DNA from: Candidatus Hydrogenedentota bacterium
Lineage (GTDB): Bacteria > Hydrogenedentota > Hydrogenedentia > Hydrogenedentales > JACPGD01
Direction: 5' to 3'
Length of the DNA: 33,839 bases
Assembly (NCBI GenBank): GCA_016182645.1
Contig: JACPGD010000249.1
Span: forward strand, 1 to 33,839
Shown here: positions 5,225-33,799 of the stretch, piece after piece
How positions within the stretch are numbered: the first letter of the stretch is position 1
Layout: every line of letters begins with the position of its first letter
The notes under the pieces: generated by a model
Told to the model about the DNA's origin: nothing
Seen by the model: only the letters and a program-made list of their open reading frames with translations
The model's database searches: none
Made by a program: the position numbers and the translations under genes

Positions 5225-5270
5225 TGTCAAACCGGTCAGACAGGTCAGACCAGTCCGGCAAGTCCGGCTT
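5225..5270. repeat. Degenerate tandem repeat, 9-bp period x5
   Basis: GTC triplets at 5226, 5235, 5244, 5253, 5262: ...tgtcaaacc|ggtcagaca|ggtcagacc|agtccggca|agtccggct. Confidence 0.8.
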
Positions 5271-5292: not shown

Positions 5293-5526
5293 ATGAAGAA
5301 ACTGCAGATTCTCGGAACAGGCTGTCCCACCTGCGCGCGTCTCGCGGAGTTGACGGAATACGCCGCGAAAGCGCTTCACCTCGAGTACGAATTGGAAAAG
5401 GTCACCAAAATCGAGGAGATTCTACGCTTCGACATCGCCGGGACGCCGGCGTTGGTCGTCGATGGGCAAGTCAAGGTATCGGGCCGTCTTCCTTCCGTAA
5501 ATGAATTAAAACAAATGTTGGTGTAG
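5293..5526 (+). CDS. Small thioredoxin-family redox-active disulfide protein (ArsE-like position)
   Basis: From the internal ATG at 5293 of ORF 4831..5526: MKKLQILGTGCPTCARLAELTEYAAKALHLEYELEKVTKIEEILRFDIAGTPALVVDGQVKVSGRLPSVNELKQMLV; CPTC active site and cis-Pro (GTPALVVDG). Confidence 0.88.
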   Translation: MKKLQILGTGCPTCARLAELTEYAAKALHLEYELEKVTKIEEILRFDIAGTPALVVDGQVKVSGRLPSVNELKQMLV

Positions 5527-5618
5527 CGTGGCTTCTGCGCAAAATTCGGACGGATCGAACCGCTCAGCCCGACTGGTCCGGCCAGTCCGGCGCACCGGCG
5601 CCTGTGGCGGATGTCCGT

Positions 5619-6107
5619 ATGAATGCTAAGAACCTCCTGCGAAATCTTCTGCTGGTATTCGCCTGCGGGAGCGTGGTGTACCTGGTGGCGCAAGAAATCA
5701 GGGCCACCCGGCCCAATTCGACGGAAATTGAGGAGAAAGGGGCGCCTCCACGGGAAGAAACCCCGGGTTCTACGGTCATTGTCTACTACCTTTCGGAAGG
5801 CAAAGACTGCGCCGTGTGCGACAACCTTGAATCCTTTACGCTTGAAACGCTACAGACTTATTTCGCCTCCGAATTGGCATCGGGACGGCTAACCTGGCGA
5901 TCCCTGGACATGGACGATCCCCAACATGCGCATTACGTGACCGATTTCAGCCTCTATACGAAGTCCGTGGTGCTGGCGGAAATGCGGGACGGCAAAACGG
6001 CTCGATTCAAGAACCTGGAGGACGTCTGGGACCACGTCTATGACAAGACCACATTCATCGAGTACATACGCACCGAAATTGCAGCATTTCTGGAACAGGT
6101 CCCATGA
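5619..6107 (+). CDS. ArsF-like protein (nitrophenyl compound nitroreductase subunit ArsF family)
   Basis: MNAKNLLRNLLLVFACGSVVYLVAQEIRA membrane/signal segment, then VIVYYLSEGKDCAVCDNLESFTLETLQTYF; CxxC, size and synteny fit the ArsF family. The ORF track starts upstream at 5604. Confidence 0.78.
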   Translation: MNAKNLLRNLLLVFACGSVVYLVAQEIRATRPNSTEIEEKGAPPREETPGSTVIVYYLSEGKDCAVCDNLESFTLETLQTYFASELASGRLTWRSLDMDDPQHAHYVTDFSLYTKSVVLAEMRDGKTARFKNLEDVWDHVYDKTTFIEYIRTEIAAFLEQVP

Positions 6108-6793
6108 ATGAAACCGCGGTGGCCACCGGGCTGGCTTTCTGGTTCGGACTGCTCACTTCCATCAGCCCCTGCCTCCTGGCGACCAATGTAACTGCCATCT
6201 CGTTCATTGCCCGCCGCGTCTCCCTGCCGCGTTACGTCCTGCTCTCCGGTATCTGCTACACCATTGGCCAGGCGTGCGCGTTCATTCTCCTTTCGGCGGC
6301 GCTCGTCTCAGGACTCCTCACGGTCCCGCTCGTTTCGCATTGGCTGCAGAAGTATCTGTTCCGCCTGCTGGGACCGGTGCTAATCGTGTGCGCGCTGTTC
6401 CTGCTGCAATGGCTCGTGCCGCACTGGGGCAGGGGCCGGCTCAAAGCGTGGGTGCAACAGTGGGCGGGAGACGGTGGGCTGTGGGCGGCGGCGCTCCTGG
6501 GCATCGTCTTCGCCATGTCCTTCTGCCCGACCACCGCGGCTTTGTTCTTTGGGAGCATGCTGCCGCTTGCAATCGCCCGTGAATCTTCCGTGTTGATTCC
6601 GCTCGTATATGCGGTCGGCGTGGCGCTGCCGGTCATCTCCTTCAGCCTCGTCATCGCCTTCGCGGCCCACCGCGTCGGCCTGATCTTCGAACGCATCGGC
6701 AGCTTCGAGCGCTATGCAAGGAATGGCACCGGCGCTATTTTCCTGCTGGTGGGAATCTACTTCACTCTCGCGTACACGCTGGGCCTCTTCTGA
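6104..6793 (+). CDS. ArsG-like/CcdA-like permease (aminobenzylarsenical efflux permease ArsG family)
   Basis: 229 aa multi-TM protein MNETAVATGLAFWFGLLTSISPCLLATNVTAISFIARRV...; overlaps the ArsF-like stop (ATGA); SPCLL...CPTTAALFFGSMLP motifs resemble DsbD/CcdA-type permeases. Confidence 0.8.
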   Translation: MNETAVATGLAFWFGLLTSISPCLLATNVTAISFIARRVSLPRYVLLSGICYTIGQACAFILLSAALVSGLLTVPLVSHWLQKYLFRLLGPVLIVCALFLLQWLVPHWGRGRLKAWVQQWAGDGGLWAAALLGIVFAMSFCPTTAALFFGSMLPLAIARESSVLIPLVYAVGVALPVISFSLVIAFAAHRVGLIFERIGSFERYARNGTGAIFLLVGIYFTLAYTLGLF

Positions 6794-6830: not shown

Positions 6831-6866
6831 GACTTGTGCGTCCTTCGTGTCCTTTTGGTCCTTTGA
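6831..6866. repeat. Degenerate tandem repeat, 9-bp period x3
   Basis: GTCC at 6840, 6849, 6858: gacttgtgcgtccttcgtgtccttttggtcctttgag; sits between convergent genes. Confidence 0.65.
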
Positions 6867-6875
6867 GAATTCCCG

Positions 6876-8384
6876 CTACAACTCGATCCACGTGGTCGTG
6901 TGGCAGGCTTCAAGGTCTTCCTTGTTGCGGAAGGCAATCGCGGCTGTGGGACACGCCGCGACGCATTCCGCCGCTGATTTCACGAGCGCGTCGTCGAAGC
7001 TGTGGTCAAAGGGAACGCGGATCTCAAGATCGAAGCCGCGGCCGATCATGGCCAAGCCGATGTCCTCGCCGTGCTTCTCCGCAATCGCCACACACAGGCC
7101 GCAGCGGATGCATTTCCCGGGCTCAAACAGGATGTTGCCCCGGCCAATGATCCGGAAATCGCGCTCTTCGGTGGTCAGGTACTTCTTCTTTTCGGCGCCG
7201 TAATCGGTGGCCCACTTGCGCAGCCCGCACGACACGCGCTTGCGGCAATCGCAGTGCAGGCAGCGGCCCGCCTCCACGCGCGAATCGAGCAGGGGACCAT
7301 CAATCGTTGAGACCGGCAAGGATTCCTTGTTTTCATTGTGCTCGCGCATGTTTTCCATTTCCGCGCGCTGCATCTTGCCGATCTTGCTCTCGAAAAACTC
7401 TGGTTCCTTCGTGACCGTAATGCTGCTGAGGTATTTGTCCGCCCAGACGCCCGCGGTCTTGCCATTACCGACCGCCTTCACCGTCAGCTTGTGTTCTTTG
7501 GCCTCGAAAATCTTCCCGCCGGGCTTGGCCACGCCGTTGCACGCCACAATGACCGCATCAAATTCCTGGAGGATCGCGTCCAGATCGCCGTTGCCGTTGA
7601 TCTCGCTCTTATAGCGGAAATCGACCCCCAGCCGCGTGACCGACTCGATTTCCGCGTCCAAAACGTGCTTGGGCAACTCTTCGTCCTTCAACTTGCGCAG
7701 CTTGCCGCCCGCCTTTTCTTCCTTCTCGAAAATGACAACACCGTGCCCCTTCTTGCGCAGCACCCAGGCGGCCGCCATGCCGGTGCAGCCGCCGCCGATA
7801 ATGGCGATGCGGCGGCCGGTGTCCGGGGGACACTCGAGCAGTTCCGGGTTCTCTTTGCGCGCGCGCTCGGAAACGTTGCGGTGCAATGTCCGGATCTTCA
7901 TGGTCTCGTCGTAGGCCTTGCGGCGGCAGGGATTCTCGCACGGCGCCGGGCAGACATGCCCGAGCGTGCCCGGAAACACCAAGCCGTTGGTGACCGTGTA
8001 CGCCGCGCCGTCGAGATCGCCCTCGTAGATCTGGCGCATCATCACGGGGATGTTCATCGAGGCCGGGCAGGTGTGCGTGCAGGGGGCCTCGCAATCGCCG
8101 ATGTGCTCGCTGATGATGAGTTCGAGCACCTCTTTGCGCGAGGCGCACACGTCGCCGGCGTCGGTCTCGACACGCATCCCGTCCTGCACGATGGTCGAAC
8201 ACGAGGGCACCAATTGGCCGGTGCGCAGGTCGCGCACGACGCACAGCATGCACGAATTCATCGGCCGCACGCCTTCCCAATAACACAACGTGGGCACTTC
8301 TATTTCGAGCTGCCGCGCGGCGTGCAAAACCGACGTGCCGGGCGCCACTTCGATCTCGTGGTTGTTAATTACGATTTTAGGCAA
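6876..8384 (-). CDS. NuoG-like 2Fe-2S / GltD-like flavoprotein with 4Fe-4S motifs
   Basis: 502 aa: N-terminal [2Fe-2S] (CYWEGVRPMNSCMLC), GltD-type Fer4_20 region (CEAPCTHTCPASMNIP...CPAPCENPCRRK), FAD GxGxxG (RRIAIIGGGCTGMAAAWVLRKKGHGVVIFE), C-terminal Cys motifs (CIRCGLC...CVAACPTAAI). Confidence 0.87.
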   Translation of the reverse strand: MPKIVINNHEIEVAPGTSVLHAARQLEIEVPTLCYWEGVRPMNSCMLCVVRDLRTGQLVPSCSTIVQDGMRVETDAGDVCASRKEVLELIISEHIGDCEAPCTHTCPASMNIPVMMRQIYEGDLDGAAYTVTNGLVFPGTLGHVCPAPCENPCRRKAYDETMKIRTLHRNVSERARKENPELLECPPDTGRRIAIIGGGCTGMAAAWVLRKKGHGVVIFEKEEKAGGKLRKLKDEELPKHVLDAEIESVTRLGVDFRYKSEINGNGDLDAILQEFDAVIVACNGVAKPGGKIFEAKEHKLTVKAVGNGKTAGVWADKYLSSITVTKEPEFFESKIGKMQRAEMENMREHNENKESLPVSTIDGPLLDSRVEAGRCLHCDCRKRVSCGLRKWATDYGAEKKKYLTTEERDFRIIGRGNILFEPGKCIRCGLCVAIAEKHGEDIGLAMIGRGFDLEIRVPFDHSFDDALVKSAAECVAACPTAAIAFRNKEDLEACHTTTWIEL

Positions 8385-15850: not shown

Positions 15851-15897
15851 GCTATGAAGTGTTCCGGCTGTCCCTGTTGTCTTTCATCTGTCCGTGT

Positions 15898-23234: not shown

Positions 23235-23268
23235 CAGGGACAACTGGACAGCAGGGACAAGGGAAGAG

Positions 23269-30395: not shown

Positions 30396-30396
30396 G

Positions 30397-30467
30397 AATT
30401 AGGAATTAGGAATTAGGAATGGGGGGGATGAGGAGATGAGGGGATGGGAGGAATGGAGGGAGGGAAA
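30397..30467. repeat. AATTAGG x3 tandem followed by polypurine tract with 8-9-bp periodicity
   Basis: aattaggaattaggaattagg then aatgggggggatgaggagatgaggggatgggaggaatggagggaggga; ATG steps at 30419, 30428, 30436, 30444, 30453. Confidence 0.65.
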
Positions 30468-32897: not shown

Positions 32898-33674
32898 TTA
32901 TTCGCTGCGTGACAGCGCCTTGGCGCCAAGAGACTGCACCAGGGGGTCGGCGCCCTCACCGCAGAATCCAAGATGGAGGTGGCGCCGCCAGCCTTCGGCG
33001 TAGGCGAACTGCCTGGACCACCGCCCGACTTCGCGGGACATGTCTTCCATGGTGATGAGGTAGCTGTCCAGACCCTGGCTGTGATCGAGCCATTCCTTCT
33101 GGCTGCGGTGGCAGGCGAGCGCTTCCCGTTTTCGCGGCAGCACCTCGGAAATATCCACGTAGAGGTGCGGCTCGATGCGCTGGCGGAGCCCGTCGCGCAG
33201 ACCATAGGGGAGGGCGTGGTAGACAGTGACTTCACCTTCCACGGCGGGCCGGGGCGGATCGGTGGTGTAATTGCGCATGCCGCGAGAGAAGGCGGCGCTC
33301 AAAGCGAGGCGGCAGGCGTTCATGTGGTCTTCCATATAGTCCTGCGGCGAGTGCAGCAGGAGGATGGCGGGATTCACCTCGCGGATGACGGCTGCGACGC
33401 GGCGCAATAGGGACGGCCCATAGAAGATTTCGAGGTCGTCGACCAGTGGTTCATGCAGGATTGCGCCCAGGGCCTTCGCGGCGTCGCGCGCTTCGCCCAG
33501 GCGCGTGGCGATGGTGGTGTCCTTATCCATGGTCGCCGAACCACAACTGCCGTTGGCGATGTTCATCATGTGAAGTTCAAAGCCGGCCTGTCCCAGCAGG
33601 AACAGGGTGCCGGCCATCATGAATTCGATGTCGTCGGGGTGGGCCGCGACGGCGAAGACTGCGGGTTTACTCAC
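32898..33674 (-). CDS. PIG-L family (LmbE-like) deacetylase
   Basis: GTG start at 33674 preceded by AAGGAG: VSKPAVFAVAAHPDDIEFMMAGTLFLLGQAGFELHMMNIANGSCGS...; the AHPDD motif is diagnostic of the family; HSPQDYMEDHMNACRL. Confidence 0.93.
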   Translation of the reverse strand: MSKPAVFAVAAHPDDIEFMMAGTLFLLGQAGFELHMMNIANGSCGSATMDKDTTIATRLGEARDAAKALGAILHEPLVDDLEIFYGPSLLRRVAAVIREVNPAILLLHSPQDYMEDHMNACRLALSAAFSRGMRNYTTDPPRPAVEGEVTVYHALPYGLRDGLRQRIEPHLYVDISEVLPRKREALACHRSQKEWLDHSQGLDSYLITMEDMSREVGRWSRQFAYAEGWRRHLHLGFCGEGADPLVQSLGAKALSRSE

Positions 33675-33755: not shown

Positions 33756-33799
33756 ATGGACGGAATGGACGGGAGGGACGAGATGGACAGCATGGACGT
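33756..33799. repeat. Degenerate tandem repeat, 9-bp period x5
   Basis: (T/G)GGAC at 33757, 33766, 33775, 33784, 33793: catggacgg|aatggacgg|gagggacga|gatggacag|catggacgt. Confidence 0.8.

Follow-up and report, generated by a model that had tools for sequence, protein, structure and literature searches.

Why should the trinucleotide GTC recur every 9 bp between genes, at several places of one contig and in units whose other letters differ? The window, by which we mean the whole stretch of 33,839 nt that was analysed, is contig C495 of a 5.6 Mb MAG that is 95% complete, and its NuoG-like protein has its nearest named relatives in Candidatus Hydrogenedentota MAGs (66–79% identity). The original prediction was of degenerate nonamer arrays with a strict 9-bp period, all lying in gaps between genes and explained either by protein binding or as slippage relics. 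Its main runs (from 5226, 33757 and 6840, and the pair at 5576/5585) are exact in the letters of the window (Table 1). Of the looser loci that had been added to them, 15870/15879 and 23238/23246/23255 stand as short, partly out-of-phase runs, while 30396-30465 had to be removed: it consists of a GAATTAG heptamer in 3.6 perfect copies next to a purine-rich tract and contains no GTC. The 3.8 kb of window gaps contain 7 three-copy runs of GTC/GAC at lag 9, compared with a mean of 0.03 in 1000 dinucleotide shuffles; there are 4 runs of four copies and 2 of five, both against 0.000 in the shuffles (P ≤ 0.001 in all three cases).

Table 1. Arrays, flanking genes and other repeats in the window, numbered from its first letter
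Feature	Position	Strand	Remarks
GTC array, five units: GTCAAACCG GTCAGACAG GTCAGACCA GTCCGGCAA GTCCGGCTT	5226..5270	+	Palindromic dialect GTCNGACNN, partial decay; GTC at 5226, 5235, 5244, 5253, 5262
Thioredoxin-fold gene	5293-5526	+	Begins 22 bp 3′ of array 5226..5270
GTCCGGCNN run, two units	5576..5593	+	GTCC at 5576 and 5585; between the thioredoxin-fold gene and the next gene (5604-6107)
CcdA-like membrane-protein gene	6104-6793	+	Named by sequence reading
Direct array GTCCTTNNN, three units	6840..6866	+	GTCC at 6840, 6849, 6858; convergent gap between CcdA-like and NuoG-like genes
NuoG-like gene	6876-8384	−	Flanks array 6840..6866
Two GTC units 9 bp apart, third at 11 bp	15870..15893	+	Weak member
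Short GGAC run, 8- and 9-bp spacing	23238..23258	−	Weak member; just 3′ of the stop of an O-antigen-ligase-like gene
GAATTAG heptamers and purine-rich tract	30396..30465	+	Other repeat class, outside the GTC class
PIG-L deacetylase gene	32898-33674	−	
Direct array, five units	33756..33798	−	Upstream of PIG-L gene; GGAC at 33758, 33767, 33776, 33785, 33794, GAC from 33759; + strand ATGGAC/AGGGAC + NNN, which is GTCCNTNNN on the − strand

The pattern is not confined to the window. In about 197 kb sampled from evenly spaced contigs of the same genome, lag 9 stands out in the intergenic autocorrelation with an identity of 0.282, compared with about 0.267 at lags 8 and 10 (SE 0.003). When the window is added to this sample, GTC heads all 64 trinucleotides in enrichment at intergenic lag 9, with 14 occurrences against 0.3 in shuffles and 1 in roughly six times as much coding DNA. 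The autocorrelation and shuffle checks that had been proposed for the prediction both came out in its favour. Over the 5.6 Mb, five-copy GTC-N6 matches amount to 57+75 (132) on the two strands and those of the reversed word to 4+2 (6); three-copy GTCNGACNN matches amount to 60+60 against 0+0 for the control, the two strands counting the same sites here because the pattern is self-complementary. In 625 kb of own-genome DNA, an array-enriched set fetched mostly around arrays, there are 283 three-copy runs of GTC with period 9, 8 with period 10 and none with periods 6, 7, 8, 11, 12 or 14. The 9-bp period is thus dominant, with three-copy runs at 8 or 11 bp absent, but it is not the universal one that had been claimed, since a minor dialect, GTCCGTGTNN, has period 10, is separate from the 9-bp runs and is common in the relative G015. 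This 10-bp sister dialect, also seen as GTCCGTGNNN, is abundant in G015 (C11:42192-42314, C67:12195-12387) and rare in the genome of the window (C472:19515-19557).

The class of degenerate nonamers with a common GTC core holds across the phylum as well. The genomes compared are no closer to that of the window than order level. If a genome counts as enriched from 10 hits upward, provided that these are three times the control or more, 30 of 68 Hydrogenedentota genomes are enriched for GTC and 0 of 68 for the reversed word; among 150 sampled control genomes from the phylum to which a Magnetococcales MAG belongs, GTC is enriched in 2 and the reversed word in 17. Contrasts within genera are strong (81 in G001 vs 0 in G002, 92 in G040 vs 1 in G039, and 59 vs 3), the counts of this phylum comparison being overlapping matches and not array numbers, and in many species of the phylum arrays are rare or absent. 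A search of open-licence PMC papers returned nothing that links Hydrogenedentota to such repeats, which in itself does not prove absence. One genome of the control-phylum sample, G096, has nonamer arrays of its own, GTCTGAACC/GTCTGAATG, at several loci (e.g. C11:200085-200150), which suggests that other lineages have analogous nonamer classes. Scans of IMG/VR gave coding repeats, some of them collagen-like with Gly-Pro, mixed with non-identical arrays that may be of the GTC kind; contigs L279, L295 and L334 carry several non-identical GTCNGACNN arrays each. The IMG/VR arrays were left out of the evidence, their hosts not being identified.

Two main types of unit are found in the genome of the window, a palindromic one, GTCNGACNN, and a direct one, GTCCNTNNN. 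The palindromic unit reads GTC N GAC NN. GAC was not imposed by the array search, and its three letters (positions 5-7) are present at 94, 88 and 80%, values that lean upward because arrays were typed by that motif and some loci came from a GTCNGAC search; positions 4, 8 and 9 are near random. The direct unit reads GTC C N T NNN, mainly as GTCCAT, GTCCCT or GTCCTT, and 138 of 190 direct units fit GTCCNT (ANGGAC on the opposite strand) with all four bases occurring at N. Two or three positions per unit drift freely while GTC stays fixed every 9 bases. N positions of palindromic arrays agree hardly more often between adjacent units (0.36-0.38) than between random ones (0.27-0.32). Where two GTC units were required on each side and the unit between them was left free, GTC was present in 80 of 83 middle units and positions 8-9 were random; these cases are not independent, since the windows overlap and most loci were fetched for five-copy arrays.

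This anatomy bears directly on the possibility that the arrays are neutral relics of slippage or unequal exchange, in which a duplication-prone GTC 9-mer would be multiplied and the arrays would decay where they are tolerated. Decay should strike all nine positions equally, but it is the N positions that randomise, GTC (and GAC) being retained. Since the core is kept while positions 4, 8 and 9 randomise, mutation and slippage alone fit poorly and the core appears to be maintained. Nor would slippage account for a GTC common to several dialects or for the head-to-head pairing described below.

Comparison of relatives also supplies points in favour of slippage. The cluster of thioredoxin-fold gene, next gene and CcdA-like gene is conserved beside the NuoG-like gene in L031 and L033, which belong to other genera, and no array was found in the orthologous gaps of the cluster there; yet the genome of L031 as a whole is rich in arrays, with 268 hits. 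In the only two gaps of G040 that could be aligned to its more distant congener G039 (L149, L157), G039 has no array. Over shorter evolutionary distances an array often stays where it is. Close species differ by exactly one 9-bp unit in one array (L373/L385; G052/G051 array 46 vs 37 bp), and the L370/L391 arrays differ by 36 bp; a second array common to G052 and G051 is of equal length in both, and two further gaps have no array in G051. G030, G031 and G028 have palindromic arrays in common, in which unit number and N positions differ and the core is retained, and the other orthologous gaps of this comparison hold a remnant only, or nothing. In orthologous palindromic arrays of sister species 10 of 90 core positions differ, whereas the N positions agree at 0.26-0.47 over all unit pairs and at 0.58 or less when best aligned; these figures come from a small set of four comparisons, in species not selected for these loci and in gaps where an array is still recognisable. 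As in short-unit SSRs, units of 9 bp or less follow one another head to tail, are enriched over shuffles and change in number between close relatives. Long, homogeneous and clearly young arrays occur in some relatives (G034, G011, G036), and near-perfect unit identity, the mark of recent slippage, is likewise confined to some relatives and absent from the genome of the window. The array-free orthologous gaps, the scarcity of arrays in divergent gaps and the insertions into protein linkers, both taken up below, also speak for slippage. The slippage half of the original prediction is thus borne out for copy-number change and for the homogeneous arrays of some genomes, but not for the core, and as the whole explanation we think neutral relics unlikely, although a serious contender. 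Taken together, the repeats form a class specific to the lineage, with a core under constraint; they come in several dialects, change length by whole units and turn over from genus to genus.

Since 9 bp correspond to three codons, arrays can sit in-frame in real proteins. The arrays of the window all lie outside called genes, as had been claimed, but the claim does not extend to the class, a minority of which is in-frame within real proteins. The clearest case is the IleRS of the same genome (L062:203-265, C24), which contains a SDQSDRSDQSDRSDQSDRSDK insert, 21 residues of Ser-Asp-X derived from a seven-unit GTC array, at a loop that is gapped when the protein is aligned with Thermus IleRS (1ILE). 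A PKS/PUFA-type synthase (L104:2604-6599, C394 of the same genome) has RDx/KDx repeats resembling degenerate arrays in the linkers between its repeated carrier-protein-like segments, and from reading of translations in-frame arrays appear to occur in a sulfatase-like and an M56-peptidase-like protein too. Two N-terminal signal-peptide regions (L103:1714-1880 and L064:4711-4737) are built from a direct array, giving SISSISSIS... and SILSILSI..., and here the repeat seems to have become coding. These names, from PKS/PUFA to signal peptide, come from reading the sequence and not from a domain search. Arrays of this kind complicate gene calling in linkers and signal peptides, and the (SDx)n, (RDx)n and Ser-hydrophobic repeats that they encode might suggest that the arrays are simply parts of genes with three-residue repeats. 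However, gaps hold 117 of the 150 runs of at least three copies, and among the other 33, nominally coding, several are chance triplets or fall in doubtful ORFs. As an account of the class, and of the window arrays in particular, coding repeats are most improbable.

With genes called by a simple codon-usage caller, so that boundaries are approximate, gap arrays of at least four copies lie in 53 codirectional, 9 divergent and 5 convergent gaps. Divergent gaps are under-represented, with 9 of 67 arrays in 30% of the gap bases. The median distance is 28 bp from the upstream stop and 53 bp from the next start, and in codirectional gaps the arrays are closer to the upstream stop. Direct arrays in codirectional gaps present GTC on the sense strand 13 times and GAC 13 times. 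Close to gene 5′ ends the ratio on the sense strand is 24 GTC to 8 GAC. Among direct arrays 120 bp or less apart, 13 pairs are arranged head to head (GAC, followed by GTC) and one is tail to tail; a single genome, G011, contributes many of these pairs.

Such pairs, and the palindromic arrays, could act within transcripts as hairpins that stabilise or terminate 3′ ends in the manner of REP/BIME. Head-to-head pairs are predicted to form very stable RNA hairpins (mean z −9.2, 9 pairs), palindromic arrays fold moderately (59% below z −2 vs 15% of control gaps), and the latter lie mostly in codirectional gaps and closer to the upstream stop, which would suit a role at 3′ ends. However, no RNA structure is seen in single direct arrays (mean z −0.32 vs −0.52 in control gaps), and the N positions of the palindromic arrays of the window's genome gave no sign of adjustment to base pairing, with a non-significant mean z of +0.37. 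No T-tract is evident by eye 3′ of the head-to-head pairs, no Rfam family was matched across the window, and a scan limited to the window arrays gave no excess of intrinsic terminators close to them. We consider RNA hairpin elements distinctly unlikely as the explanation. In G011, loci L208, L209, L210, L211 and L213 have long head-to-head arrays whose complementary arms often include the variable bases and form strong hairpins; these are possibly template-switch products.

RNA could also be recognised as a sequence. ANGGA is the core bound by CsrA/RsmE proteins, and the direct dialect, read on its GGAC strand, is ANGGAC, as most direct units are. The excess of GTC over GAC on the sense strand near 5′ ends nevertheless puts the motif mostly on the wrong strand for mRNA-leader sites, and the palindromic dialect does not contain ANGGA, so that we give RNA-binding sites of this type very little credence.

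We also hold it to be very improbable that the arrays are mobile micro-elements which a REP-associated transposase (RAYT, Y1) has spread. Y1_Tnp occurs widely in the phylum, and array number shows a rank correlation with it (rho 0.49), but the correlation is largely one of genome size (partial 0.25), some array-poor genomes have three or more Y1 matches, and no conserved ends or flanks were seen. Dependence on Y1/RAYT as a necessary condition was rejected because G003 and G028 are array-rich without a Y1 match, with the caveat that these are MAGs and may be incomplete. An inverted repeat of the type TTCCCGC(C/G)TTCGCGGGAATGAC / GTCATTCCCGCGAAAGCGGGAA, REP-like in appearance, occupies a gap of the window at 1853-1925.

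The data are poorly explained by relics of slippage, by coding repeats, by REPs that a transposase carries or by RNA signals on the sense strand, and of the two explanations originally offered, binding of a putative protein remains the better guess. Our preferred reading, to which we would assign somewhat less than an even chance, is that the arrays are tandem binding sites for a putative DNA-binding protein, born by tandem duplication and with a core kept by selection. They would be multivalent DNA sites made of contiguous GTC half-sites in 9-bp steps, either as the palindrome GTC-N-GAC with two free bases or as direct GTCCNT with three, and a chromosomal protein that polymerises or clusters on contiguous sites would read GTC. 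New arrays would arise by tandem duplication of a GTC-bearing 9-mer, would gain and lose whole units, and would persist through selection on the core, their exact address mattering little. What argues for binding is that GTC at lag 9 is specific by word, lag and lineage, that GAC is conserved without having been imposed, that GTC recurs in free internal units and that the core changes little between orthologous arrays; fixed letters kept over evolutionary time point to a reader. The use of both strands and both unit symmetries, the unfolded single direct arrays and the untuned N positions favour recognition of DNA over RNA. Since the exact address seems to have little weight, a role spread over many sites, for instance in organising the chromosome or in mild local repression, would fit better than regulation of single genes, and the absence or rarity of arrays in many species, together with their uneven number in congeners, rules out a function essential to the phylum. 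Binding is less easily reconciled with the in-frame arrays of coding sequences and with the long homogeneous young arrays, which slippage alone would give, and the minor 10-bp dialect weakens a strict helical-phase argument.

Binding may be part of a fast-evolving chromosomal addressing that spans the phylum. A conserved Hydrogenedentota DNA-binding protein would nucleate on contiguous GTC sites spaced by 9 bp (by 10 bp for one of the dialects), many interchangeable arrays being born, resized and lost with only the core letters under selection; the dialects would then reflect co-evolving versions of the protein. We think this rather unlikely on balance, if well worth keeping in mind. Bacterial short tandem repeats are usually regarded as slippage noise or as phase-variation switches. 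The fixed and free positions of the GTC units can be told apart by sequence alone, and provide a natural test of selection on arrays at the scale of a phylum. If a protein does read them, an uncultivated lineage would turn out to have a new distributed system for DNA organisation or regulation; if there is no reader, a mutational mechanism would be needed that writes GTC every 9 bases and leaves the rest free.

Several known repeats resemble the GTC arrays in part. Xanthomonas and Nostoc have intergenic GGGAATC / GGGGA(T/C)T heptamer arrays (PMC4692102), likewise many and short in each genome, with a lineage-specific word and some inverted repeats, and likewise found in the same gene gaps of sister species with varying length and sequence. 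The GTC arrays differ in having 9-bp units with a constrained core and free positions, in their several dialects and in entering protein linkers, and the unit composition in the genome of the window does not provide the G-quadruplex-forming runs (at least three G) of the heptamers. The TAACTGA direct-repeat sets of Beggiatoaceae, cyanobacteria and Bacteroidetes (PMC4679880) are also numerous, short and patchy among relatives, with whole-unit indels and some copies within ORFs. Word, period, degeneracy and placement are different, however: in Beggiatoaceae the specific heptamer for the most part directly precedes start codons, in a single orientation (PMC4679880), whereas GTC arrays lie at the median distance to the next start given above and direct arrays are split evenly in orientation. 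REP/BIME and GTAG/CGTC-tagged repeats are stem-loops of 20-40 bp with a tetranucleotide tag, transposase-associated in the case of GTAG (PMC3733652); like the GTC arrays they are interspersed, mostly intergenic, palindromic, often in dimers of opposite orientation and at times inside genes, but the GTC arrays are tandem nonamers with no conserved GTAG/CGTC tag and, in view of the array-rich MAGs without a Y1 match, no dependence on Y1. From the known lineage-specific intergenic arrays, those of GGGAATC and TAACTGA, the GTC arrays differ in unit, internal degeneracy, dialects and placement.

Their architecture is closest to that of sites for ribbon-helix-helix proteins. The met boxes of MetJ, which are such sites, are tandem short palindromes. 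In the parS heptads of pSM19035, read by a ribbon-helix-helix ParB, the repeats are contiguous and of differing orientations, and at least four are needed for full activity (PMC9499535). GTC arrays similarly consist of contiguous short sites, direct or inverted, in several units; they differ in that ribbon-helix-helix arrays have units of 7 or 8 bp at one or a few loci and a known protein, whereas the GTC units are of 9 bp, occur at many loci and have a presumed reader. The pSM19035 ParB heptad array would be the nearest functional analogue of the GTC arrays, by resemblance of architecture and not by membership.
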